A stretch of 42,434 nt of DNA from a virus. Shown piece by piece: positions 2,501-39,565 of the stretch; within the stretch, counting starts at the first letter, position 1, and the number at the start of each line of letters is the position of its first letter. Under the pieces are notes generated by a model, which was not told the DNA's origin, did not search any database, and was given only the letters and a program-made list of their open reading frames with translations. Location: positions 1 through 42,434 of the IMG/VR virus record IMGVR_UViG_3300035698_004282. One strand, 5' to 3'. The position numbers and the translations under genes were made by a program.

Positions 2501-3769
2501 ATGCCAATTGAGAGTAGTAAAACTAAGACATCCACATGGCGTAGGTACGTTAAGGATGCTGTTGAGAACTCCGGTGGCATCGATCAGATCGGCTCTATTG
2601 TAGGCTTCTCTTTCGCTACTGCTCGAGTGGGCTGGCTCTACTGTGACGGCAGTGCCGTATCTCGAACCACCTACTCTGATCTATTCGCTGCGCTTGGTGA
2701 TGATTATGGTGCTGGTGATGGATCAACCACCTTCAACCTCCCCGACTACCGTGGGGAGTTCCTTCGTGGACAAGCCGACGGAGAGACAACTGATCCAGAC
2801 AGAGCATCCCGTACAGACCGCGGCGACGGTACTGGCGGTGATGTCATCGGTTCAAAGCAAGCTGGTGCCAACCTGAGTCACACTCACGCAGCGGCAGGTA
2901 CTCACACGCACACTACCTTAGTTCGTGATGTACAGTCCAACGACCCCGCGCACTTTGACAATGCGAACGAACAGGGCTACGCTTACGCAAACCGCACCTC
3001 ATCAGACGCCGGTAGCCACAGCCACGCAGCGGATGGCGGCAACGAGGCTCGTCCTACTAACATATATGTTCGATACTACATATGTGCAGTCATCACCGTA
3101 ACTGGCCCCACTGGCCCCACTGGCCCGACAGGAGACACAGGTCTGACTGGAGACACAGGCTTAACAGGTGCTCAAGGTGATCAGGGCATCCAAGGTGTGC
3201 AAGGCGACACAGGTTCAACTGGCGACACAGGAGCAACAGGTGCTCAAGGTGTGCAAGGCATACAGGGAGTCACGGGTGACACAGGTCTGACAGGGGCCAC
3301 TGGCCCAGCAGGGGCAGGTATCGTCATCCAAACAGCATTTTTGATCGACTCGGCCTTGAGAAGTGGCACTACTACGATATCAGTAGATAACTCCATCCCT
3401 CAGAAGACAGAGGGGAATCAATGGATGACGTTAGCCTTCACACCCACATCAGCTACAAGTCTGTTAAAGCTTGAAATTAATGGACACCAAGCGCACACGG
3501 CTCCGGCATGGCAATCCCTGTCACTCTTCCAAGATGACATTACCAATGCCATCGCTTCTACGATGGTTTTTAATTCCATTGCAACAGGAGTCGCGAACCA
3601 GTTCTTCAATCACGTCATGGTGGCAGGAACCACGGATGAGATTGTATTTAAAGTCCGAGGGGGAGGGCATGTTGCCGGGTCCTGCATATGGAATGGAAAT
3701 ACAACGATTAGCCGGCTTCAAGGTGGGGTCATGGCTTCCTCAATCATCATCACAGAGTATGCACAGTAA
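2501..3769 (+). CDS. Tail fibre with collar domain and collagen-like repeats (422 aa)
   Basis: Likely receptor-contacting virion fibre. An N-terminal phage tail collar domain is recognisable by [36 protein letters not shown] and the His-rich [12 protein letters not shown] segment. A collagen-like Gly-X-Y tract follows, about residues 201-273 ([26 protein letters not shown]), and then a beta-rich C-terminal domain of about 145 residues that may be a C1q/TNF-like trimeric head. In many fibres the collar lies near the C-terminus; here it comes first. The gene sits ahead of the terminase, unusual for a T7-like order, and its TAA overlaps the terminase ATG (TAATG). Confidence 0.85.
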
Positions 3770-5049
3770 TGGAACTAGACTTCAGTCTACACAACAAGCA
3801 GCTTGAGATTTTCAAATCGAAGGCTCGCTTCAAGATTGTAGCAGCAGGCAGACGTGGTGGGAAGTCCTACCTATCGGCCGTAACGCTACTGATCGAAGCA
3901 CTGAAGGAGGAGAACCGTTTTGGTATTCCCTTGAAGGGGAAGGAAGTTTGGTATGTAGCTCCCACCTACCAGCAGGCCAGAGACATCATCTGGAACCTGC
4001 TGAAAGAACTAGGTCAGCCTGTAATTGACCAAGTGTATGAGAACACATCTACGATGCGACTCATCAATGGACGGACTATCAAGCTGAAAGGCTCTGACAG
4101 ACCGGACACCCTCCGCGGAGTGTCACTGGCGTATGTCGTTCTAGACGAGTACGCCTTCATGAAACCGGAGGTTTGGGATATGATCATAGGGCCTGCATTG
4201 GCAGATACACGTGGAGAAGCTCTCTTCATTGGTACTCCAGCAGGCAAAAACCATTTCTACATGTTGTGGGATGAAGCCGCCACTGACTCCGACGAGGAGT
4301 GGGAATCATTTCACTTCAACAGCTTGGACAATCCTCTGATCAGTCAGAAGGAATTGGACAAGGCTCGCAACCGCATGAGTAAGGAAGCGTTTCGACAGGA
4401 GTTCGAAGCATCGTTTGAAGCTGCCGGTGGCGGCGCCTTCAACTCTGATGACTTCCAGTACGCAGACAAGTCTCCCGAAGTGGGAGATATTTTCATTGCA
4501 GTTGACCCTGCCGGTTACGGCACGGGGCAAGGACTCTCCAAAGCAGCAGCAGCAAAACTGGACGAGTGTTCTATTGCTGTCGTTGAAGTGAGCACCCAAG
4601 GCTGGTTTGTTCACGACATGGTGCACGGACGATGGGGCGTGAGGGAAACTTCCATCAAGGTGATTCGTGCAGCCCAGCAGCACAAGGCATCCGTCCTCGG
4701 AATCGAGGCAGGAAGTTTGAAGAACGCCATGATGCCCTATCTGGAAGACCAGATGAGACGCCTGAACTCCTATCCGAATGTCCAGCCACTGAAGCATGGT
4801 GGTCAGAAGAAGGAAGAGCGCATCATTTGGAGTTTGCAAGGCCGGTTCCAGAACAAGAAGATTTGGTTTAAGAAGGGCGCCCCTTGGCTTCCTTGGTTGG
4901 AAGGCCAGCTCCTCGACTTCCCCAACAAGATGAGTCACGACGATGGGCCAGACAGCTTGGCATACATCGACCAGCTCGGCACAGCCATCTACAACCACGG
5001 CTGGCACGAAGAAGATTATGAAGCACTCGACATGGTGTCGGGCTACTAA
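3769..5049 (+). CDS. terL: Terminase large subunit (426 aa)
   Basis: ATP-driven DNA packaging motor and headful or terminal nuclease acting at the portal. Walker A is AAGRRGGKS (about residues 25-33), Walker B YVVLDEYAF with D126-E127, and a coupling motif FIGTPAGKN follows (153-161). The C-terminal RNase H-like nuclease has IAVDPAGYG (D246), GIEAGSLKN (near 310) and GPDSLAYID (near 395). The length is normal for phage terminases. The start overlaps the fibre stop, and the portal follows after 11 nt with its own AAAGGAAA ribosome site. Confidence 0.95.
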   Translation: MELDFSLHNKQLEIFKSKARFKIVAAGRRGGKSYLSAVTLLIEALKEENRFGIPLKGKEVWYVAPTYQQARDIIWNLLKELGQPVIDQVYENTSTMRLINGRTIKLKGSDRPDTLRGVSLAYVVLDEYAFMKPEVWDMIIGPALADTRGEALFIGTPAGKNHFYMLWDEAATDSDEEWESFHFNSLDNPLISQKELDKARNRMSKEAFRQEFEASFEAAGGGAFNSDDFQYADKSPEVGDIFIAVDPAGYGTGQGLSKAAAAKLDECSIAVVEVSTQGWFVHDMVHGRWGVRETSIKVIRAAQQHKASVLGIEAGSLKNAMMPYLEDQMRRLNSYPNVQPLKHGGQKKEERIIWSLQGRFQNKKIWFKKGAPWLPWLEGQLLDFPNKMSHDDGPDSLAYIDQLGTAIYNHGWHEEDYEALDMVSGY

Positions 5050-10682: not shown

Positions 10683-12224
10683 ATGCCTAAGCCTCTAATC
10701 CCACTCACTGTCCAAAGTCCCGGATTTCTTGGTCTGAACACACAGCAATCAGGCAGCGTTCTGCCTGTGGGCTGGGCTACCACACTTGACAACTTCGTCT
10801 ATGATGACGTGGGTCGAGTGGCTTCTCGTTCAGGCACTCGTAGACGCAACGCTACAGTTATTCCATCCACTCCTGTTGTGTATGCAGCACATGAGTTCAT
10901 CGACGCCTCTGGCAACCGGGTGAACATCCTCGCAGCTGACGACAAAATCTTCAAAGAAGTTAGTGGCACTATCACCGATGTGACTGATGCTGGCATGTCT
11001 GCGCCTGCCGCCGACAAGTGGCAGTTCGTCAACTTCAATGGCTGGTGTGTAGGATTTCAGGCAGGGCACGTCCCTTGCATCTCTACGTCAGCCACCACAC
11101 CAAACTTCGTGGACTTCTCTGGCTCCAATGGAACCAATTTCTTCAAGGGCAGCATGGGCTGCTCTGCCTATGGTAGATTGTGGACAGTGTTGGACAACAC
11201 CCTCCACTACTCTGACCTTCTGATTGCCAACTTTGCTGGTGGCAGCAGTGGCAACTTTGACCTAGCTAAGTTCTGGCCTAATGGCATGGATGAGGCTGTT
11301 GCAATTGCAGACTTCAATGGTCTGCTTATTGTGTTTGGCAAGAAGTCAATCATCGTCTATGAGAATGCAGACGAAGTGGCGAACATGGCTATTGTTGAAG
11401 GCATCGACGGGATTGGGTGTATCGCAAGAGACAGCGTCCAAACAATCGGGAAAGACATTGCCTTCCTTTCTGACTCAGGTGTTCGTTCTTTGGGACGAAG
11501 CTTGGGAGATGAGGTTATGCCTCTCACTGATCTGTCAGCACACGTGCGTGATGCTCTGATTCGAGTGGCACTGCTCGAGACACCAGTTGACATCAAGAGC
11601 GTGTACAATCCAGAAGAGGGTTTCTATCTGCTGTCCTTTCCGACAGCTGGAATCAGCTACTGCTTTGACCTGAAGTTCCCAAACGATGATGGGACATGGA
11701 AGGCTACTAGGTGGGACATTGCTCCAACGGCTCTTATGTACGATGAAGGGCATATAATGTACATGTCAGTGTCTGCGGGCTACATCTCCACCTACACAAA
11801 CTATCTGGATGAATCTGCATCCGATGACAGTGGCGGCACAGCCTACCGGCTGAATTTCGAAGGAGTGTGGAATGACTTCGGTGAAGACTATGCCCCATTC
11901 CTGAAGATCGTAAAGAACGTAAGCATGCTGGCAGCAGGAACCCCTGCGGGTGCCGTTGCTTTCAAGTGGGCCTTCGACTATGACGAGACATTCCGGTCTG
12001 TTGTCTTGGACTTCTCAGGCGCCGCACCTCCAGTGTATGGTGGAAGTGCTACATGGGGTGGGGCTTTCTCGTACACAAGTGGAGGCTCGTTCCAACGTAT
12101 CAGGAGTCCTCTGTCCTCTACTGGACAGGTAATGAAAATGGGAATGACAACCACAATCAGTGGCTACGCCTTCGCCCTTCAACGGCTTGACGTACTTGCT
12201 AAGATCGGGAAGCTTGGGCTATGA
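10683..12224 (+). CDS. Tail tubular protein B / tail nozzle-like (513 aa)
   Basis: Probable tail nozzle, in the position of T7 gp12 or P22-type stabilisation proteins. The N-terminus SPGFLGLNTQQSGSVLPVGWA-type opening is typical of this group, followed by beta-propeller-like repeats (DDKIFKEVSG, NGLLIVFGKKSIIVYE, IAFLSDSGVRSLGR). The ATG at 10683 lies immediately after the adaptor stop. The protein is somewhat shorter than T7 gp12, which is common in marine podoviruses. Confidence 0.82.
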   Translation: MPKPLIPLTVQSPGFLGLNTQQSGSVLPVGWATTLDNFVYDDVGRVASRSGTRRRNATVIPSTPVVYAAHEFIDASGNRVNILAADDKIFKEVSGTITDVTDAGMSAPAADKWQFVNFNGWCVGFQAGHVPCISTSATTPNFVDFSGSNGTNFFKGSMGCSAYGRLWTVLDNTLHYSDLLIANFAGGSSGNFDLAKFWPNGMDEAVAIADFNGLLIVFGKKSIIVYENADEVANMAIVEGIDGIGCIARDSVQTIGKDIAFLSDSGVRSLGRSLGDEVMPLTDLSAHVRDALIRVALLETPVDIKSVYNPEEGFYLLSFPTAGISYCFDLKFPNDDGTWKATRWDIAPTALMYDEGHIMYMSVSAGYISTYTNYLDESASDDSGGTAYRLNFEGVWNDFGEDYAPFLKIVKNVSMLAAGTPAGAVAFKWAFDYDETFRSVVLDFSGAAPPVYGGSATWGGAFSYTSGGSFQRIRSPLSSTGQVMKMGMTTTISGYAFALQRLDVLAKIGKLGL

Positions 12225-12940
12225 GTGATTACACAAACACATTTGGAGGTGCTGCAAAAGACAGTGGCACCGATCCCATTCTCGGTGCAGAGCATGATGT
12301 TGAGCTGGACGCTATTGCAGTGGCCCTCGCCACGAAGGCTGATGTAGTTGCCGGGGGAGTCTTCGACAACCTTGTCAGCCAAGCAGCCAGCGGCGGGATC
12401 GCCGACTCTGGCGCTGACAGTGATCACTACTTAGGACTGAGTGGGGTAATTCCGACTCAACTCGCCACTAAGATTGTGTGCCTGCCGGAAGCTGCTAACC
12501 ACAAGAAGATCGGGAATCTTCAGATGGCTGACGGCAATCAGTCCCACAAGATATCAGCCAGCGACATCACGGAGAGTACGTGGGAATCAGTGGGCCCCAC
12601 GGGTAATGGAGCAGACCACGTCATTGCATTCTGGCCTGCCTCTCCTATTCCTCGAATTGCAGTCTTCAATGTAATTATCTCCACTACGAATACCGGAGGT
12701 GTGGGAACAGATACACACACGTTTCTTCACACCACTCACGGAGATGATGGCAGCCCTGCACTGGACTCCCGCACCCTACAGGTTCGGGTAGGACATACAG
12801 CTCTCGACAGTTCTTGCCAGTTTGGATTCTCTCAGCTAATCTTTGTTCCACTGAATGCTGCTGGAGTGTTCAAGATGTATTGGGAAGGCAACGGGTCAGG
12901 TACACAGATGGACATGTACTACAAAGGATTTATTGGATAA
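12221..12940 (+). CDS. Tandem paralogous virion protein 1 (239 aa)
   Basis: First of three consecutive paralogues. Shared features are MSDYTNTFGGAAKDS at the N-terminus, a VELDAIAVALATKADV helix, GPTGNGADH in the middle (around residue 126) and a C-terminal YYKGFIG. The C-terminal half looks beta-rich, like a fibre head. It starts in an ATGA overlap with tail nozzle and ends in a TAATG overlap with copy 2. Likely tail-fibre or tail-associated proteins; family not identified. Confidence 0.7.
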   Translation: MSDYTNTFGGAAKDSGTDPILGAEHDVELDAIAVALATKADVVAGGVFDNLVSQAASGGIADSGADSDHYLGLSGVIPTQLATKIVCLPEAANHKKIGNLQMADGNQSHKISASDITESTWESVGPTGNGADHVIAFWPASPIPRIAVFNVIISTTNTGGVGTDTHTFLHTTHGDDGSPALDSRTLQVRVGHTALDSSCQFGFSQLIFVPLNAAGVFKMYWEGNGSGTQMDMYYKGFIG

Positions 12941-13674
12941 TGAGTGACTACACAAAACAGATTGATTGGGTTGCCCGAGGCACCACAGCTGCCAATTGCC
13001 TAGCTGCTGACCACGACACTGAACTGGCCGCCATTGCTGTAGCAATTGCCACCAAGACAGAGAACGTGCCTTCTGCCGTTGCTGGTAACATCAGCAAGCA
13101 GACAAGTGGAGGCAAGCTAGCTGACACAGGCATCGCTGCCTCTCTTCTGGCAGGCACTACGAGTAGTGTGCAAGATCAAATTGACGCCGGGTTAGATGTT
13201 GTTGCTACTCCAGACAACCACATTAGGGTAGGCAATTGGTTCCTCACAAACCAAGAGGACGGACTTGCTGAGTTCGATCTTGATGGACTGACCTCGAGAT
13301 TGTGGACGACTATCGGGCCGACAGGCAACGGAGCTACGGAATGGGCAGCACTGGACGTAGTGCCTTCTGAAGCAGGCATTCTCATTTTTCAGATGCATGT
13401 CAAAGGGCTAGGGACGAGCGCCGACGAGTTGAATTCTCCGTCCTCCTCTCTGTGGCACAGCGTCCCGAGCCATTCCTCCGATGGGCAAGAGAACAGCAAT
13501 AAGTGTTGGTATCTTGAAAAGAGTGTGCTCAAGGTAGGAGCAGTCTACGAAGCGACTTCCACGTTTATGCTGCCATGCACCACGGATCAGAGAATTGCTC
13601 TGTATTGGTCACAGGGCACCTACCACAATAATGTCACAGCAAACCTGTCTTACAGGGGGTTCATCACTTCATGA
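12940..13674 (+). CDS. Tandem paralogous virion protein 2 (244 aa)
   Basis: Second paralogue. N-terminus MSDYTKQIDWVARGTTAAN, then HDTELAAIAVAIATKTENV aligned with the matching helix of copy 1, GPTGNGATE in the middle and SYRGFITS at the C-terminus. The start is the ATG overlapping the preceding TAA (TAATG); the stop overlaps copy 3 (ATGA). The N-terminal module is best conserved and would attach to the tail, while the divergent C-terminal halves could bind different ligands. This division is inference. Confidence 0.7.
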   Translation: MSDYTKQIDWVARGTTAANCLAADHDTELAAIAVAIATKTENVPSAVAGNISKQTSGGKLADTGIAASLLAGTTSSVQDQIDAGLDVVATPDNHIRVGNWFLTNQEDGLAEFDLDGLTSRLWTTIGPTGNGATEWAALDVVPSEAGILIFQMHVKGLGTSADELNSPSSSLWHSVPSHSSDGQENSNKCWYLEKSVLKVGAVYEATSTFMLPCTTDQRIALYWSQGTYHNNVTANLSYRGFITS

Positions 13675-14426
13675 GCAATTACATTAACATTTTCGGTGGG
13701 GCAGCTAAGGATGCTTCCCTGTCGCCGGTCGTAGCCAGCGCATGGGAAGAGGAGTATAACAGTATTGCTGAGTCCATATCTTCCAAGGCCAACTCGATTG
13801 TCGGGGGCACTGAAGACAACCTCCTCAAGCTGGATGCGGAAGGCAGCGTCGAAGACGTAGCGGTGAGTGCTGACAACATTGTCGGAGTCACTACTAATGT
13901 GCAGAGCTCGCTTGACCTACTGGTGCCGGACACAGCTCCAGCTGCTCAGAACACCAGCATGACAAAGGTGGGAAACCACATCATCTTCAACACAAAGAAC
14001 AACAGTAACACTGACTCCCTCACTGTCCTTGATCAGGCCACCTTCTACACTATGGGGCCGGTGGGAAGTGGAGCTGACATTGAGGATGCTGATTGGGCAG
14101 ATTACTACATGGTAGGAGCCGACTGCATCGCAGGCTGGATGAACGTCAACTTCACTATTAAGAACACCTTCTCGACGGCAGTCTCGGTGTACATGACGAG
14201 CTCAGATATTGTCTCCCCAACCGTGGATGATAGAAACTTGATCGCTGAGATCACAGCCAGCGGGCTGGCGGGCAACGCTTCTAAAGCCTTTCGTACCCAA
14301 CAGCAACAGTATTTCATGTGCCCGGTGGGCGCTGACGGCAAGGTCAAGATTACATGGAAGGCAGGTTTGGGTGGGCAGTCGCTCGAGAACTATGCAATGT
14401 ATCCTACGATGAGCATCAAAGCATGA
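13671..14426 (+). CDS. Tandem paralogous virion protein 3 (251 aa)
   Basis: Third paralogue. MSNYINIFGGAAKDASLSP closely matches copy 1, followed by EYNSIAESISSKANSIVGG and the central GPVGSGADI. The C-terminal domain is the most divergent (MTSSDIVSPTVDDRNLIAE). Coupled by ATGA overlaps on both sides. Function as for its neighbours: probable virion protein, unassigned. Confidence 0.68.
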   Translation: MSNYINIFGGAAKDASLSPVVASAWEEEYNSIAESISSKANSIVGGTEDNLLKLDAEGSVEDVAVSADNIVGVTTNVQSSLDLLVPDTAPAAQNTSMTKVGNHIIFNTKNNSNTDSLTVLDQATFYTMGPVGSGADIEDADWADYYMVGADCIAGWMNVNFTIKNTFSTAVSVYMTSSDIVSPTVDDRNLIAEITASGLAGNASKAFRTQQQQYFMCPVGADGKVKITWKAGLGGQSLENYAMYPTMSIKA

Positions 14427-28990: not shown

Positions 28991-29237
28991 TATCAATCTC
29001 CCATATTTCCAGTGCGGTTTGTTCAGCAGCTTTGGCTATTAGCCTCAGCTTCTTGACAGAGGCCACCCGATCCTTCCGGCTGTATACGTCAATCGACAAG
29101 TTGACACTACGAGCGCAGTCGGCAAGGCGAAACTCTGCATCGTACGTTCCATCGTCCAAGTCCATCGACAAGCCATACTTCAGCCAGCCTGTGTGATAGC
29201 TGTTGACAGGATTCAACCAAACTCTATGCTTACTCAT
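28983..29237 (-). CDS. Hypothetical protein (84 aa)
   Basis: Not recognised. The ATG at 29237 overlaps the RNA ligase stop (ATGA). Contains YGLSMDLDDGTYDAEFRLAD and a helical C-terminus (LRLIAKAAEQTALEIWEI). Soluble. Confidence 0.6.
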   Translation of the reverse strand: MSKHRVWLNPVNSYHTGWLKYGLSMDLDDGTYDAEFRLADCARSVNLSIDVYSRKDRVASVKKLRLIAKAAEQTALEIWEIDNG

Positions 29238-29803
29238 AACTTCCACTTCCCCTCGCTCATGGCGAACGTATGTTTCTCGTACCGTCTGGACTTGCAGTAC
29301 CAGACAACAACTCCTTCAGGGCGTATGCCTTCAGCTTCGTACGCATAGTTCCTGAGTAGCCCCGTCATCGTGACATCGATCATGTCCTCACCCATCTCGT
29401 TGACTGCTGGCCCTTCGTACAGCACAGGGACACACAGGACGCCTGACGGGCGCTCCTGTCTACCATCACGCCAGCGGTTTGAGTCGAACAGTAGGAAGTG
29501 CTTGCCTACCATACCGTGAGGATTCTTCTGAATTCCCTCACCAGCCCACTCACCGTAGTGATACCCTGCACCCAGCTTAGCTGCTAGATCATCCTTGTTG
29601 GCCTCAACGTAGTTGGCGAAGCCGTAGTTGTCGTCATGAATTTCGATCAATCTCTTGCGAGACTGGACACCCACTACGATGGGGCCAGCTATGCCCTCCT
29701 CCACGATGATGCATGCGTTAGTGCCATCGATCTTCTCGGTGATAGTAATCACTTCCTGCTTTGTCCCTCTCGGGATTTTAGGCCAAGCTACAAATTCACT
29801 CAT
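29234..29803 (-). CDS. RNA ligase, Rnl2/DRB0094-like (189 aa)
   Basis: ATP-dependent nucleotidyltransferase. Motif I TEKIDGTN has the lysine to be adenylated (K24); GYHYGEWAGEG is motif III-like (E86), FLLFD is motif IIIa (103-107), EGVVVWY is motif IV (E163), and KHTF may be motif V (K177). It lacks a large C-terminal domain, as in minimal RNA ligases. Probably repairs or seals RNA in infected cells, possibly tRNA. ATG 29803 overlaps the previous gene. Confidence 0.85.
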   Translation of the reverse strand: MSEFVAWPKIPRGTKQEVITITEKIDGTNACIIVEEGIAGPIVVGVQSRKRLIEIHDDNYGFANYVEANKDDLAAKLGAGYHYGEWAGEGIQKNPHGMVGKHFLLFDSNRWRDGRQERPSGVLCVPVLYEGPAVNEMGEDMIDVTMTGLLRNYAYEAEGIRPEGVVVWYCKSRRYEKHTFAMSEGKWKL

Positions 29804-30002
29804 GCTTTTCCCCCAGCACATACACTGTGCCTGATTCAGTTGTAATGGTTCCATTGCTATCGTCTCTCTCAACGATAGGGCTGGTGATGGAGTAGTTACC
29901 TTGCTGACCTACTCGTGAGTCGGGGTGGTCAGTGATGCGCCCGGTGAGGCACGGCGCCCCATTCCACCTGATCTCCCTCCAGTTGTGAATGATTGTCTTC
30001 AT
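29796..30002 (-). CDS. Conserved phage hypothetical protein (68 aa)
   Basis: Beta-rich short protein with TGRITDHPDSRVGQQGNYSI and ITTESGTVYVLGE, a pattern I recall from small conserved phage proteins of unknown function. It overlaps genes on both sides. Confidence 0.6.
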   Translation of the reverse strand: MKTIIHNWREIRWNGAPCLTGRITDHPDSRVGQQGNYSITSPIVERDDSNGTITTESGTVYVLGEKHE

Positions 30003-30959: not shown

Positions 30960-31190
30960 TTAAAGCTCCTTCATTGGTGACACTCTCGTGTCGTTAACGG
31001 CAATCTTCCTTGCCCCGTTACGGGTGTTCAAGAAATCTTTACCAGAATAACTACGTGCCGTTGTGCTAACGGTGCGCACTCCACAGCCTAGCTCCTCTGC
31101 GATAGCAGGATATGTCATGTCTGTGTGTGCTATACGCTTGCAAAGCAAAGCGGTGTTGTTCATGTGCTCTTGTCTAGTATTACCTATCAT
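30960..31190 (-). CDS. Small HTH-type protein (76 aa)
   Basis: MTYPAIAEELGCGVRTVSTT (about residues 25-44) has the form of a helix-turn-helix, with a basic C-terminal tail. First gene after the leftward promoter at 31280-31308. Start 31190 or 31163; neither has a strong ribosome site. Possible regulator of the downstream genes or binder of a dispersed palindrome. Confidence 0.55.
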   Translation of the reverse strand: MIGNTRQEHMNNTALLCKRIAHTDMTYPAIAEELGCGVRTVSTTARSYSGKDFLNTRNGARKIAVNDTRVSPMKEL

Positions 31191-31311
31191 TAGTTAGTTA
31201 CTCTATCTCCCCCTTTAGGGGGGAGAGTTAGTTAGTTATCTAGTTAGTTAGTTAACTAGTTAGTTAGTTAGTTTTAGTAAGGGTAGCATACTTCCTACCC
31301 CCTGTCAAGCA
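31191..31311. repeat. AGTT/TAGT tetranucleotide tract with a C/G hairpin
   Basis: The space between the polymerase 3' gene and the HTH gene has many TTAG/AGTT units in several short runs (about 31191-31275), interrupted by a hairpin CTCCCCC-ttta-GGGGGGAG around 31207-31227. It lies downstream of the promoter, so the tract would form the leader of the HTH transcript. Simple repeats of this type expand and contract easily. Confidence 0.75.
31280..31308 (-). promoter_or_regulatory. Leftward sigma70-type promoter
   Basis: Consensus TTGACA (31308-31303), 17-nt spacer, TACCCT (31285-31280). It begins right after the polymerase stop (31312) and would drive HTH, SSB and later genes. Confidence 0.6.
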
Positions 31312-32160
31312 CTACTTTAACGTGCCCCAAGTTGGGCCAACCTCCACATCGACGGGGAGTTGCATGTCGAAGTCAATGCCAAACACATCCTTCAATACTT
31401 CAGGCGCAGACTCGAGCAGTTTCTGTGTCTTGATAATCAAGCCACCCTCTTCAGTAAGAGCAGGGGCATCGAGCATCACGCTGTCATGAGTCGTATTAAC
31501 CAGCATTACCTCGGGGAACTCACGTTTCAAGAAACGGTTGACTCTTCCAAGCATCATGGGAACCACGTCACCCGTGGCAAACCCTTGCACCTTGAAGTTC
31601 TTCATCTGTGTTGGGCTGAAGCTCAGCTTCTTGCCCATCCATGCCGGTGGTGCCTGCTCGATGAATGTGTAGCGCCGACCAGTCGGTGAGGTAATCATGC
31701 TGCTTCCTGCTGACATACCATTAACCATGTGGGAACTCATAGTTCTGTTCCTAAGAACATCATGTGCCACTCTCTCCTGCCATTCCTCGACAACCCTATA
31801 CCTTGTGTAGTATCGGCCGATGAACTGCTGGCAAAGCTTCTTCGGCAGGCCAGTCTGGTGTGCCATCAGTCCAGCTGCTCCACCATACTGAACCAGAAAT
31901 CCAAGGGGCTTGGCTCGCTTGCGAAGTGCTGACATATCAGCATCGCCTGCCTTGTGTGCCTTGTAGATTTCATTGTACGTGTAGTCAGAGATGAAGCTTG
32001 CCGACAGGCAGTGCATGTCCAGCCCACCCCTGATGTCAGCCTTCAGCTGTTCATCGCCTGACAACCATGCCAGACCAATGACTTCGAGCTGACTGTAGTC
32101 AAACTGTATCAGCACCCCGTCATCAAAACGGGAGGTGAACATGTCCTTGATGCTACTCAT
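31312..32160 (-). CDS. DNA polymerase family A, C-terminal (palm/fingers) subunit (282 aa)
   Basis: Carries polymerase motif A (FDYSQLE; D21, E26), motif B (RKRAKPLGFLVQYGG; K84, Y92) and motif C (TTHDSVMLD; H225, D226, with Ser at 227 in place of the common Glu). It starts exactly where an intact polymerase would continue after GRLSSS-PNMQN of the 33913-32729 gene. ATG 32160 (overlap ATGAGTAG with the 42-aa gene, AGGAG 8 nt upstream) is preferred over 32166. Both halves must associate to give an active enzyme if no splicing occurs. Palindrome at 31747 encodes VLRN. Confidence 0.88.
   Translation of the reverse strand: MSSIKDMFTSRFDDGVLIQFDYSQLEVIGLAWLSGDEQLKADIRGGLDMHCLSASFISDYTYNEIYKAHKAGDADMSALRKRAKPLGFLVQYGGAAGLMAHQTGLPKKLCQQFIGRYYTRYRVVEEWQERVAHDVLRNRTMSSHMVNGMSAGSSMITSPTGRRYTFIEQAPPAWMGKKLSFSPTQMKNFKVQGFATGDVVPMMLGRVNRFLKREFPEVMLVNTTHDSVMLDAPALTEEGGLIIKTQKLLESAPEVLKDVFGIDFDMQLPVDVEVGPTWGTLK
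31747..31758. repeat. Dispersed palindrome GTTCCTAAGAAC in polymerase 3' gene
   Basis: Perfect; leftward GTT CTT AGG AAC (Val-Leu-Arg-Asn). Confidence 0.92.
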
Positions 32161-32281
32161 CTTCATCCACTCCTATGTCAATGTAATCGCAGTGCTCGTG
32201 GCACTCGGTGCACAGCCCGATGTCCCTCGAGATGTCCTGCTCCGGTGCACTACAACATTCACTTACCCATTCTTCACTCAT
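32153..32281 (-). CDS. 42-aa Cys-rich protein inside the split polymerase
   Basis: ATG 32281 overlaps the previous stop (ATGA), and the TAG lies in the polymerase C start. Sequence MSEEWVSECCSAPEQDISRD, then LCTECHEHCDY: four or five Cys and two His in zinc-ribbon spacing, acidic tail. Too short for a full ribbon domain search by eye, but coupling and Cys pattern support a real gene. Confidence 0.6.
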   Translation of the reverse strand: MSEEWVSECCSAPEQDISRDIGLCTECHEHCDYIDIGVDEDE

Positions 32282-32499
32282 TTTATTTCTCCACAATCAT
32301 CAAGCGTTGGTCGGGGGCAGCCACTCGGCTTGCCATGTTTCAGTTTGTTCCTAAGATCAAAAAGCTTACGTCGAAGGTAAGAGTTCTCCTTGTTCAGTGC
32401 AAGGTATCCTGCCTCGTACAGATCACCCATCTCATGGAACCTCTGTATCGTGTGTGGCATCGGGTCGCCACGCTTCCAGCCTTCCTCTTTTTTTAGCAT
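32278..32499 (-). CDS. 73-aa hypothetical protein inside the split polymerase
   Basis: ATG 32499 overlaps the stop of the 77-aa gene (TGATG), with GAGGAG about 9 nt upstream. Helical, charged (YLALNKENSYLRRKLFDLRN), probably coiled-coil. Function unknown. The near-palindrome at 32347 is inside (DLRN). Confidence 0.6.
   Translation of the reverse strand: MLKKEEGWKRGDPMPHTIQRFHEMGDLYEAGYLALNKENSYLRRKLFDLRNKLKHGKPSGCPRPTLDDCGEIK
32347..32358. repeat. Dispersed palindrome, one mismatch (GTTCCTAAGATC)
   Basis: One mismatch in the right arm. Read leftward GAT CTT AGG AAC (Asp-Leu-Arg-Asn) in the 73-aa gene. Confidence 0.75.
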
Positions 32500-32732
32500 C
32501 AGAAGTGCTCCTCACCACGTTCAGCGTAGTACTCATTAACTTCAACTTCAAGCTGATCAATTGCCAGTAGCTTGTTCTCGTACGTCGAGCGCAGGCTCTT
32601 TTCAATGACGTATATGCCAGTAGCAGAGTGAGTCACCTTGACCCCATTACTCATGCCGCCGGTACGCATCCCACGTGTGGGTGCTGGGGGCCAGCCTTCC
32701 AGCTTCAGTTGTTCACGGTTGAATACACTCAT
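32499..32732 (-). CDS. Mini release-factor-like protein (77 aa) inside the split polymerase
   Basis: ATG 32732 overlaps the TGA of the polymerase N gene (ATGA), and its AAGGAG ribosome site is inside that gene. VKVTHSATGI (residues 31-40) and RSTYENKLLAIDQL (48-61) line up with the VRITHIPTGI and RSQHKNKAKAL of class I release-factor domain 3, and small phage RF-like proteins are known to me from annotation. The catalytic GGQ is not present (TRGMRTGGM instead), so peptide hydrolysis is unlikely unless the motif is altered. An upstream start at 32807 would lie wholly within the polymerase N gene. Confidence 0.6.
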   Translation of the reverse strand: MSVFNREQLKLEGWPPAPTRGMRTGGMSNGVKVTHSATGIYVIEKSLRSTYENKLLAIDQLEVEVNEYYAERGEEHF

Positions 32733-33913
32733 AAATCTTTCTCCTTGGTCGTAACATTCTGCATGTTTGGTGCGCTTGAACTCAAGCGGCCAGTGTTCGT
32801 GTTGCAATGGTTGAAATTACCATGGATAAATCCATCGTCCCAAGTCAGCTTGCTGAAGCCAACGTAATACGTCTTCACATCCTTCTGCATGCGACGATAG
32901 TCAAGCATTGCATTGACAAACCTCGTCACCTCAAGTGAAACAGAAGCAGTGCCGCCCTCGAACTCTCGGTACAACTCGGTGAGTACGTCATTCGCCACAC
33001 TAAACCCTTCCTTATTCTTCCATTCTTTACGAGGCTTTACCATCAAAGGTAGTGTGTTGAGCACCTCAACTTTCTTGAACTTACCCTGTCCCTCCTTGGC
33101 CCCACTTTTAAACCTGACCTGAATCCCGTCGGTGCCCATCACCGGCTGGTTCTCAATGTGCTTGGTTGTACCTCCGAAAAGATATGCACTCACCTGCTGT
33201 GATGATGCGGGGTTGGCATCGACAACACCTCGAGCCTCCATGTACGACTCCAAAATCATCTCTAAGCCCCTGATATCCTTAGACATTTCGACAGCAGCTT
33301 CAAGTGCAGCTTCCTTGTCGAAGGCCATTCCATTGAACGACATCTCAGCTGTGGCAAGCAGCGCCTCCATCTGTGTAACAATCAGAGGCATCATGTTCAT
33401 AGACATCGCTTGCTTTACTTGGGCAAGGAAAACCAGCTCAGTGTTCTTGATGTCCTCAATTAGGTACGGCTGAATCTCTTCCTCCGGTATGTCCTCGGTA
33501 TCAATACCAGCCTCCCAATACTCTTTCATCCTTGAGTCCTTGACTGTGCCCCCATATTTCTCAGAGAGTTGGTCGAGGCTAGCCCACTTGGAATCCTGTC
33601 CGGTCAGCAGGTACTCAGCCAGCTGTGTGCACCAGATACGAATGCCTCTTTTGTAAAACAGTTCATGGTTTACAGGGTCAACCTTCCACAAATAGTGGAG
33701 ATCAAACTTGATGTTGTGTCCCACCAGCAAGTCAACTTTTCGCCCTATCCCACAGTGCTTGGTACGAGGGGTGCTGATGATGTCACTGCCTCCAAGCTTG
33801 CGACCCCAATACACTGCAAAGTTATCGGGGTGAAATGGGTCGGCCTTCATCTTACCTACTGCGTCCTCCCCCACGTTCTTGATGTTCGTCTCACTGTCTA
33901 TGACTTGATACAT
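32729..33913 (-). CDS. DNA polymerase family A, N-terminal (exonuclease/thumb) subunit (394 aa)
   Basis: A 3'-5' proofreading exonuclease with Exo I IDSETN (D6, E8), Exo II LVGHNIKFDLHYLW and Exo III YLIEDIKNTE. A thumb region and GRLSSSAPNMQNV (375-387) follow, the strand just before motif A. The frame then ends seven residues later (TTKEKDL). Motifs A, B and C are supplied by the gene at 32160-31312. The good ribosome site GAGGAG precedes the ATG. No intein N-terminal Cys and no intron-like continuation is obvious. Confidence 0.88.
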   Translation of the reverse strand: MYQVIDSETNIKNVGEDAVGKMKADPFHPDNFAVYWGRKLGGSDIISTPRTKHCGIGRKVDLLVGHNIKFDLHYLWKVDPVNHELFYKRGIRIWCTQLAEYLLTGQDSKWASLDQLSEKYGGTVKDSRMKEYWEAGIDTEDIPEEEIQPYLIEDIKNTELVFLAQVKQAMSMNMMPLIVTQMEALLATAEMSFNGMAFDKEAALEAAVEMSKDIRGLEMILESYMEARGVVDANPASSQQVSAYLFGGTTKHIENQPVMGTDGIQVRFKSGAKEGQGKFKKVEVLNTLPLMVKPRKEWKNKEGFSVANDVLTELYREFEGGTASVSLEVTRFVNAMLDYRRMQKDVKTYYVGFSKLTWDDGFIHGNFNHCNTNTGRLSSSAPNMQNVTTKEKDL

Positions 33914-36740: not shown

Positions 36741-37853
36741 TCAACTCTTCAACCGTCTGTCGAAGACAGTGATGTAGTGCTCACCGATCAGGGCGCGTTC
36801 GTCATCCTCTGCGTACCGATCCAACACGATCCATGCTGCTGCTGCATCCACATCACTAAGCTCAATCGCAAGCTCAGCCCATGTCAACAGGTTACGGGGT
36901 GACAGTGCTGCCGACAGTGCACGTTGAGCGTACGATGTACGGCACAAGGTGATGAAGTCGACCATACGACCGGCCGTACGTGCTGCAAGATCAGGATAGG
37001 CCAGCGTAATCATATCAACCTCATCCTTTTTCAGCATGTAGTCCTGCTTGAGCACGACATCCATACGATTCAATGTGCTTCCATCCTGAATCATGGTGGC
37101 TGCATACTGATCCATGTTGTCACCTGTGCCCACTACGTTGTCACACAAGACCAACCGACAGGTGGGGCCAGTCGTAATCAGCTTATCCTCGAGCTCCCCC
37201 ACCATGTCATCCAGCTGGAATTGTCCGTCCTTCTCGTAGAAGCGTTGCAATGCCATCTGGATTGGGGCTGGCATCTTCCACGGCTCGTCAATCACAATCC
37301 ACCAGCCCTTCTCGGCGGCCTTGACCAGCTCACCCTTCTCATAGTGCATGCTTCCCTCACTCACCCACGGCTTGCCGAGTATGCTGTCCGACTCCATATC
37401 ACCACGACCATTGATGCAGAAGATCGGTTGGCGAGTGTGTGCACAGAAATACTTCTGCAAGCTGGACTTGCCTGACCCGGTCGGGCCAACGACCAGTGCC
37501 TTCTTATTGTTCCTAAGAACACTCACCCACAGCTGATACAGCAGCTTGATGTTAGGCACGTACTTGTCATCTACAGTAGGGATGAACGCTCGCTCACCCT
37601 TGGGCCAGTCGGTGTCCTTGAAACAAGGCGCCCTGAGATTGGGCATGCCTATTGGTGGTTCAATGTCGAAGCATTCGCTGAACGTCTTGCCTTCACGTGT
37701 ATCAGAAAACTCCTTGAGGAACACCTTTGGTGCCTCGGGTGGTATCTCGACAGCCATTCCAGCCCGTTCCCCACGTTCAGTGTTTCCGCGTGCCTTCTTC
37801 ATGGCGTCCAGTAAACCGTCTGTAACGCGCTTGTCAACTTCTTTGCTGCTCAT
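36741..37853 (-). CDS. CobS/MoxR-like AAA+ ATPase (370 aa)
   Basis: Walker A VVGPTGSGKS (121-130), Walker B WWIVIDEPWK (D189-E190), sensor-type LVLCDNVVGTGD and an arginine region (SPRNLLTW) show a MoxR/CobS-type AAA+. Its partner is the adjacent VWA protein, as in CobS-CobT and MoxR-VWA pairs. Without a CobN subunit this is unlikely to be a working cobaltochelatase; a chaperone or remodelling machine acting on a replisome, virion or host target is more plausible. AGGTGA precedes the ATG. Palindrome at 37509 encodes VLRN. Confidence 0.85.
   Translation of the reverse strand: MSSKEVDKRVTDGLLDAMKKARGNTERGERAGMAVEIPPEAPKVFLKEFSDTREGKTFSECFDIEPPIGMPNLRAPCFKDTDWPKGERAFIPTVDDKYVPNIKLLYQLWVSVLRNNKKALVVGPTGSGKSSLQKYFCAHTRQPIFCINGRGDMESDSILGKPWVSEGSMHYEKGELVKAAEKGWWIVIDEPWKMPAPIQMALQRFYEKDGQFQLDDMVGELEDKLITTGPTCRLVLCDNVVGTGDNMDQYAATMIQDGSTLNRMDVVLKQDYMLKKDEVDMITLAYPDLAARTAGRMVDFITLCRTSYAQRALSAALSPRNLLTWAELAIELSDVDAAAAWIVLDRYAEDDERALIGEHYITVFDRRLKS
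37509..37520. repeat. Dispersed palindrome GTTCCTAAGAAC in AAA+ gene
   Basis: Perfect; leftward GTT CTT AGG AAC, placed about 10 codons before the Walker A motif. Confidence 0.92.
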
Positions 37854-37861
37854 AATATCAC

Positions 37862-39565
37862 CTATTTTCTAAGGATTTTGGATTTGATGACAGCCAGTAA
37901 TGCTTCTTCAAGCTTGCTGGTGTCGCCGATTACTTCACACTCTTTGTAGAACTCTTTCACTGCATTCGACATAATCCCTATGCCATAAATCTCCATGTCA
38001 TTCCGAGCTTCCAGCTCTTTGATGGCGTCACGTGTTATGGCTCCTGCCCCACTACGGTAAGCCGATGGCTGTCCGTCACTGAACACAATCTGTATTCTAC
38101 GCACTGTCATCTGCTTTAGCAAGCGCATTGCACTCCACATGATTGATTCCCCGTCAAGGTTCTGTTCCAGACCCCAATTATCGAAGTCCTGAAAGTTAGA
38201 CATCAACCTTTCCTTATCTGCATCCTTGGCGAAACTCTTGATGATGCCATGTTGCAGCACATACTCGCCATGATAGCGCACCTCAGTGAACACGATGATC
38301 TCATGTTTGATCCGGAGCTGTGTCAGGACGTGACTCATAATCACCGCACTGGCACTTGCTGCCTGATACTTTGAGCCGCTCATGCTGCCGGAACCGTCCA
38401 CCACTAGCTGCACTGCGACATCCAACGAGATGGCATGGGTCTTCTTCTTGAATATCTTCTGCTGATATCCACCGGCATCCTTCATCGTTGCTCGATGCAG
38501 GTTCTTGCCCAGCCTTCCTTTCTTCATCCCGTGTATGTTACGAGTCATGCTCATGGTCTGCAAGAGCTTGCGCACTTGTGTTCCTAAGAACATTCCCTTT
38601 TCCACCATGGCACGGGTGTTACTGTTGGGAAGGGCGCTCACAACCTTCTTCGAGTAGTCACGCAGGCGCATGTTGTCCCAATTGCTCGGAGTGTAGCCGT
38701 GGTAATCCGACGGGACTTCCATTTCCACCGCGACCTTCTCACCATCCTCGTCCACAACCTCACCACGGACTAGCTTGTAGTCGCCACCGTCTTCGGACAT
38801 GACTTCGATGAACTCGTCGGAGTGCATGTGCTTGAATAGTTTTTCTCCAAACGCCTTCGCTTCCTCAGATAATTGCTCTTCGGCTGCCTCTTTGTCTTTT
38901 GCATCCTGTTCCTCCTTTTCGGGGTCAAGGCCAAGCAGCTCAAGCATGCGCTTGGATCGCTTGTACGTCTCGGCTGCATCACAGCCAATGGGGTTGATCT
39001 CATCATCGTGCTCGATGAGAGTTTGAAGCTGACTCATCGTCTCAGGACGAAGCTGATCCAGCACTTGGTTAGTGGCACCCGCCATTGCAGGATACCACTC
39101 CATGACAAAGGTCATGTAAGCAAAAACAACCTGCAAGAACTCAATACCACCGTCCTCGGATGTCTGCTCAAACATCTTCGTCTCAACATGCCCATCCATT
39201 ATGAGCCTGTTCGACTCACCCATGACCCGGTCACGTCCTGTGAACCGGCCGTACTGCTCGTGCTCCTGACGCAAGTCGTCGAGCGCATTTAGGCACTTGC
39301 CCAATCGGCTAGCCATGTGCACTGGTGTATTGTGAATGACATCAAAGATGTCACGATTGTTCTTAGCGCAGTGCCCCACCTCGTGGTAGGCATTGCCTTC
39401 CCACATCACCAGTTCTTCCTTTGACCATTTCCAAGAGGGTCGCTTGAGGAAGATTGTCGTTCCATCGGTGCAAGCTATGTCCTGATCGGACAGCTGCACT
39501 TTCAGGCCAGCGTCTCCAGCTAAGGCTCTCACCCGGTTGGCAATTACTGTTGCCGAGATAATCAT
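37862..39565 (-). CDS. CobT-like protein with HExxH-type and VWA domains (567 aa)
   Basis: Two recognisable parts: an N-terminal AYHEVGHCAKN (H61, E62, H65: zinc-metalloprotease-like HExxH) and a C-terminal von Willebrand A domain with a full MIDAS start VDGSGSMSGSK (near 389), plus VFSDGQPSAYRSG. Between them lies an acidic Glu/Asp/Lys linker (about 215-245). This is the CobT-like partner of the adjacent AAA+ ATPase. Substrate unknown. Clear ribosome site (AGGAG). Palindrome at 38580 encodes MFLGTQ, and another lies in the leader (39581). Confidence 0.85.
   Translation of the reverse strand: MIISATVIANRVRALAGDAGLKVQLSDQDIACTDGTTIFLKRPSWKWSKEELVMWEGNAYHEVGHCAKNNRDIFDVIHNTPVHMASRLGKCLNALDDLRQEHEQYGRFTGRDRVMGESNRLIMDGHVETKMFEQTSEDGGIEFLQVVFAYMTFVMEWYPAMAGATNQVLDQLRPETMSQLQTLIEHDDEINPIGCDAAETYKRSKRMLELLGLDPEKEEQDAKDKEAAEEQLSEEAKAFGEKLFKHMHSDEFIEVMSEDGGDYKLVRGEVVDEDGEKVAVEMEVPSDYHGYTPSNWDNMRLRDYSKKVVSALPNSNTRAMVEKGMFLGTQVRKLLQTMSMTRNIHGMKKGRLGKNLHRATMKDAGGYQQKIFKKKTHAISLDVAVQLVVDGSGSMSGSKYQAASASAVIMSHVLTQLRIKHEIIVFTEVRYHGEYVLQHGIIKSFAKDADKERLMSNFQDFDNWGLEQNLDGESIMWSAMRLLKQMTVRRIQIVFSDGQPSAYRSGAGAITRDAIKELEARNDMEIYGIGIMSNAVKEFYKECEVIGDTSKLEEALLAVIKSKILRK
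38580..38591. repeat. Dispersed palindrome GTTCCTAAGAAC in VWA gene
   Basis: Perfect; leftward ATG TTC TTA GGA ACA (Met-Phe-Leu-Gly-Thr), a different frame from most copies. Confidence 0.92.

Follow-up and report, generated by a model that had tools for sequence, protein, structure and literature searches.

A family A DNA polymerase probably encoded as two separately translated polypeptides in a metagenomic phage genome

The replicative family A DNA polymerase of the phage described here is very probably made as two polypeptides, translated separately from a single operon, which would assemble non-covalently. The window, which is the whole stretch of DNA analysed, is an IMG/VR metagenomic virus contig of 42,434 bases that may be incomplete. 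It encodes the polymerase as two halves with three small genes between them, transcribed in the order N-half, 77-aa gene, 73-aa gene, 42-aa gene and palm half. The halves are separate genes, their break point is shared with relatives, the inserts between them are variable and dispensable, and the catalytic motifs are divided between the two. A preliminary description, made from the sequence of the window, had reported the split locus, and its coordinates were correct (Table 1).

Table 1. Positions of the split polymerase genes in the window and of the endonuclease genes found in two relatives
Feature	Position	Strand	Remarks
Family A DNA polymerase locus	31312-33913	-	two halves and three small genes, all five on the minus strand
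N-half of the polymerase, 394 aa	32729..33913	-	3'-5' exonuclease, thumb, first palm segment
77-aa small gene	32499..32732	-	ATGA overlap with N-half
73-aa small gene	32278..32499	-	TGATG overlap
42-aa small gene	32153..32281	-	ATGA overlap; CC...CxxC
Palm/fingers half, 284 aa (ATG 32166) or 282 aa (ATG 32160)	31312..32166	-	motifs A, B, C
Palm-half start region	32158..32174	-	ribosome-binding-like AGGAG, then ATG 32166, ATG 32160
HNH-type endonuclease gene (phrog_3322)	L151:3165-3760		inside first palm codons
HNH-type endonuclease gene (phrog_3322)	L162:7150-7780		inside first palm codons

The stop/start overlaps said to join the small genes were seen at the junctions N-half/77-aa (ATGA), 77-aa/73-aa (TGATG) and 73-aa/42-aa (ATGA). 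A Shine-Dalgarno-like AGGAG or GGAG lies 8-9 nt upstream of every small ORF, in agreement with the earlier statement that each has its own ribosome site. The overlap of the 42-aa gene with the palm half is 8 nt, or 14 nt if translation starts at ATG 32166. The palm half is more likely the 282-aa protein starting at ATG 32160, as the AGGAG lies 9 nt upstream of this codon and 3 nt from ATG 32166, and as this start yields MSSIKDMFTSRF, agreeing with MSDIKKCIKSRF, MSQIKECFESRY and MSRIKECFTSRF in relatives. The palm half had been described as beginning nine residues before DGVLIQFDYSQLE; this count needs correction, to 15 residues from ATG 32166 or 13 from ATG 32160.

The Pfam model PF00476 (381 positions) matches the N-half over 51-136 and the palm half over 139-380, both above cut-off. 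The model is cut between 136 and 139 with nothing lost, which bears out the claim of a break at a single point. The NCBIfam model PRK05755 likewise covers the N-half up to 644 and the palm half from 649. The N-half carries a PF01612 3'-5' exonuclease domain (26.2 bits; cut-off 23.6) with the motifs DSET, NIKFDLHYL and YLIEDIKNT. Its first palm segment closes with TGRLSSSAPNMQNV followed by the C-terminal tail TTKEKDL, so that the protein stops exactly seven residues past GRLSSSAPNMQNV, as had been stated. In the palm half are motif A (DYSQLE), motif B (R82...K86...YG) and motif C (HDS). Across 43-44 relatives, the exonuclease residues D6, E8, N67, D71, Y150 and D154 and the palm residues D23, R82, K86, Y94, G95, H227 and D228 are invariant. 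Bacterial Pol I has HDE as motif C; the serine in its third position here is common to the relatives. The full set of catalytic motifs is thus present and divided between the halves. From the established structure of family A enzymes, neither half should be a complete polymerase alone, because the GRLSSS/QN segment lies in the N-half and both catalytic aspartates lie in the palm half. An intact polymerase elsewhere in the genome, which the preliminary description had named as evidence that would count against a two-subunit enzyme, was not found: the record holds no second PF00476 match.

Structure models are consistent with this division. AlphaFold2 predictions of the single chains had a mean pLDDT of 91 for the N-half and 94 for the palm half. 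When the predicted halves were aligned with Bst Pol I, the N-half covered residues 314-639 (Z 19) and the palm half 630-876 (Z 24); in the model alignments the palm half begins at 588 on Taq and at 683 on Klenow. The predicted halves tile Bst/Taq Pol I, with the break shortly before motif A. In the isolated N-half the last ~25 residues, which are its palm segment, were modelled weakly (pLDDT 57-63), as would be expected if this segment needs the partner chain.

Alignment with intact relatives had been proposed as a check, and a survey of 160 viral-contig loci and named phages set 125 intact loci beside 46 split loci (20 alpha and 26 beta, duplicates included). Intact polymerases of Autographiviridae (Lullwater, ParMal1, JSF7, R8W and Kurepalu-1) are homologous along both halves but are encoded by one uninterrupted gene. 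The split loci have one of two break points, about 17 residues apart. At the alpha break the N-half stops a few residues past QN and the palm half opens with the strand before motif A, whereas at the beta break this strand is kept in the N-half and the palm half opens directly at motif A. Alpha members are the window, the Vibrio phages ICP2, ICP2_2013_A_Haiti and MJW (Icepovirus) and VP41s3, and environmental contigs; beta members are the OM43 phages MEP401 and MEP402 and their kin. In the window the break falls between QN and the pre-motif-A strand and the palm half starts M-S-x-IK/R, as in alpha. The N-half does not end in the LFLSRYGE-like strand characteristic of beta; the corresponding strand, SIKDMFTSRF, sits in the palm half. 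One further locus, L068, was rejected as a split locus and placed in neither class, as its N-half lacks GRLSSS and appears frameshifted.

VP41s3 and the ICP2 group are the closest named relatives of both halves. The most similar split relative found shares about 46% identity, and when viral contigs were scanned with one protein at a time (palm half, N-half, 77-aa and 73-aa proteins) no close relative was found. The break of the window recurs more than chance would allow: 19 further loci have it, although these include near-copies. In a polymerase tree of 94 rows the beta loci form one clade with 100/100 support, and the window groups with the split rows L010, L011, L013 and L016 (support 91/61), although several long branches make its exact placement unsure. 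The distribution of split and intact genes takes at least two changes, and none of the bootstrap trees has one change. Taken with the difference in break point, these changes point to two or more separate splitting events. On the best tree alpha itself takes two changes, though a single alpha origin is also compatible with the data.

Selection was measured as dN/dS on pairs of split relatives, the window itself being too distant for this. In the pairs compared, N-halves gave 0.09-0.21 and palm halves 0.05-0.18; the halves of ICP2 and ICP2_2013_A_Haiti, which are 88-95% identical, gave 0.05-0.10. Both halves thus evolve under purifying selection in these relatives. It is very improbable, therefore, that the polymerase is non-functional and decaying, or that the split is an assembly error, while another enzyme replicates the genome. 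Such an error might be suspected in a metagenomic contig that is perhaps incomplete, but a similar split is present in isolates with complete genomes (ICP2_2013_A_Haiti, VP41s3, MEP401 and MEP402), the catalytic motifs are intact, and the record offers no other PF00476 gene.

The spacer between the halves is variable. In ICP2_2013_A_Haiti it is the stop codon and 9 nt; ICP2 and MJW each have one HNH gene, the two being mutually dissimilar; and VP41s3 has one unrelated 86-aa ORF. The spacer has thus changed completely within the ICP2 group while the halves (ICP2 and Haiti) stayed nearly the same. Across the split loci it holds none, one, two or three unrelated ORFs, an HNH gene, an Endonuclease VII gene or an R67 dihydrofolate reductase. 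In ten split loci the halves overlap or lie no more than 9 nt apart: six alpha (L005, L012, L013, L016, L019 and L021, of which L012/L013 and L016/L019 are apparent near-copies) and four beta (L144, L156, L158 and L166). Nearly all split loci have a separate ATG for the palm half, in most cases preceded by a ribosome site. The R67-type enzyme (PF06442, E 2.7e-22) is encoded in a beta spacer at L009:4139-4345 (ctOsX528, MW202697); the palm half of this locus reads SIATQKALEW where relatives have NADAKALEW, and has no ATG start. In another locus, a short tmRNA-family match (66 bits; L010:7475-7553) lies ~600 nt downstream of the split polymerase.

None of the three small genes of the window was convincingly matched in the other loci compared. 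The 77-aa protein has weak similarity to part of the RF-1/PrfH domain, with the GGQ loop missing, and one weak phage relative. Phage searches gave no relatives for the 73- and 42-aa proteins, and the viral contigs none for the 73-aa protein; the CC...CxxC of the 42-aa protein is possibly zinc-binding. These genes are read as cargo. Because of their tight overlaps they belong to the same translational unit as the two halves, which could suggest bridging or regulatory subunits of a five-gene polymerase. The spacer content is not conserved, however, and neither the 77- nor the 73-aa protein was matched in viral contigs; inserts as polymerase subunits were rejected for the variation between loci, and a five-gene polymerase is considered very unlikely.

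The same comparison bears on splicing, either of RNA or of protein. HNH genes are often carried by introns, and the RefSeq record of ICP2 annotates the polymerase as a two-part join. Introns are common in phage polymerase genes, according to work cited in PMC10580990. A self-splicing group I or group II intron carrying the small ORFs, with a spliced mRNA giving one protein, is nevertheless highly improbable. The covariance-model search proposed earlier gave no intron signal: no Rfam match was obtained in the window at the gathering threshold, nor over 31900-33000 at E<=10, nor was there an Rfam intron match in four named relatives and in seven loci, most of them with inserts. The interval is instead filled by small genes with overlapping starts and stops, followed in nearly all loci by a palm half that has a start codon of its own. 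An intron cannot explain the split in the ten loci with an absent or minimal insert, as there is nothing to splice out.

Joining of the halves by protein trans-splicing is extremely improbable. Split inteins together with a homing endonuclease have been described in 'fractured' phage genes (Dassa 2009, as cited in PMC10448857), but here the N-half has just 7 residues past the conserved QNV and the palm half about 5 before the conserved IK..SRF. Relatives sharing the break have short tails as well, and the window has no intein family match. The earlier statement that no homing endonuclease, intein or intron is present thus holds for the window, on domain-family and Rfam searches.

The separately translated polymerase is favoured over these alternatives because the split is widely inherited, ten loci are free of inserts, relatives show purifying selection on each half and the motifs are complete. 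The split is real and the two-polypeptide enzyme probably functional, and comparison with the relatives supports the earlier suggestion of a working two-subunit polymerase rather than a broken gene. Ribosomes would travel down the operon via the overlapping or adjacent stop and start codons, presumably by re-initiation, making one chain with the exonuclease, thumb and first palm segment (GRLSSS...QN) and a second with the fingers and the remaining palm, which together hold motifs A, B and C. The two chains would fold separately and then assemble non-covalently between the QN motif and the pre-motif-A strand, rebuilding one polymerase active site; we infer this assembly, and the activity that would follow from it. 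A spacer read in this way would tolerate nothing, or a few small cargo genes, harmlessly.

How the split may have arisen is suggested by relatives. HNH or Endonuclease VII genes occupy the spacers of five of these (ICP2, MJW, L151, L162 and L165), and domain-family searches found no endonuclease gene between the halves in the window. In the beta loci L151 and L162 the HNH gene is preceded by a dead palm start, ATG...CAAGCGGA or CAAGCAGA, running into unrelated sequence, and is followed by a new ribosome site, an ATG and the first palm codons. The two HNH proteins are identical at 81 of 144 aligned residues. The new palm start probably came with the element, because the upstream remnant of L151 matches its relative L145 while its downstream start resembles that of L162. 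These loci show how an element can interrupt the gene yet restore the downstream piece. In L162, motif A contains an additional six bases that include a stop codon. An apparent loss of the aspartate of this motif in L151 was rejected as a wrong choice of start: the true palm start reads CAAGCAGATGCAAAG, and there is an apparent one-base deletion just after motif A.

By analogy, the first splits may have arisen when a homing endonuclease gene inserted, later to be lost or replaced. A broader proposal is made tentatively, with a little under even confidence: that the stretch from QN to motif A of phage family A polymerases is a recurrent fission site. On this view, homing endonuclease genes, by replacing the start of the downstream piece, would have split the polymerase independently in two or more lineages; the obligate two-subunit enzymes would outlast the endonuclease, and other genes would then land in the spacer.

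A split of this kind has already been reported (PMC10580990) and is also visible in ICP2-group records. The published split is that of the Zobellviridae OM43 phages MEP401 and MEP402 and of group I metagenomic genomes, for which the authors suggested an intron and left the matter unsettled (Yang et al. 2023, PMC10580990). There too a family A polymerase is divided into an ORF with exonuclease and N-terminal Pol_A and an ORF with C-terminal Pol_A, with a small ORF between the halves and a similar helicase/polymerase gene order. In these phages, however, the FDGEIKTLFLSRYGE strand precedes the break, which lies immediately ahead of motif A and about 17 residues later than that of the window; they form a separate clade, and have one unrelated small ORF rather than three. 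Published accounts of an RCA phage group and of cobaviruses do not mention a split polymerase. The Icepovirus phages and VP41s3, the nearest named relatives, break within a few residues of the window, but their spacers consist of 9 nt, of an HNH gene or of a single unrelated 86-aa ORF, and in ICP2 the polymerase is deposited as a joined CDS.

More distant parallels are found in other replication enzymes. In Aeromonas phages 25 and 44RR a replicative polymerase is likewise encoded by two genes, 43A and 43B, with a homing endonuclease or an untranslated spacer between them, and the halves from phage 25 co-purify and are active (PMC2988022). This is an unrelated polymerase, of family B, with another break and in other phages. 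NrdA of Aeromonas phage Aeh1, described in PMC2988022 as genes-in-pieces split by mobE, is also an essential enzyme of nucleotide metabolism and replication that was split by a homing endonuclease and still functions. It is a ribonucleotide reductase, and its endonuclease is still present, unlike in the window.

The ICP2 group also shares with the window a CobT-like gene, which in the window forms part of a CobS/CobT-like pair (36741-39565, minus strand; an AAA_5 ATPase and a CobT_C VWA protein). The best phage matches of the polymerase halves and the CobT-like protein are to ICP2-group phages first. Those of the terminase (3769-5049, plus strand) lie outside Zobellviridae, unlike the replication genes, which hints at modular exchange and makes any assignment of the whole phage to Zobellviridae tentative. 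Other features of the window are a tail-fibre-like gene with a collagen-like Gly-X-Y stretch (2501-3769, plus strand), three tandem, apparently related genes among structural genes (12221-14426, plus strand; starts MSDYTN, MSDYTK and MSNYIN), a protein with an EKIDGTN motif, like RNA/DNA ligases (29234-29872, minus strand), and, immediately downstream of the palm gene, a series of TAGT/AGTT tetranucleotide repeats (31190-31275).

What is added here to the published split is the ICP2-type break as a class of its own, the members without inserts, the tree with two splits and the endonuclease footprint. The comparison addresses the intron question of PMC10580990 and favours two genes. If its two chains do work together, joined at the catalytic palm, such a polymerase would be a natural split enzyme in which to study how an essential protein can be divided and still be retained. 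The footprint in L151 and L162 suggests a concrete, testable route by which a selfish gene may divide an essential one while the phage survives.
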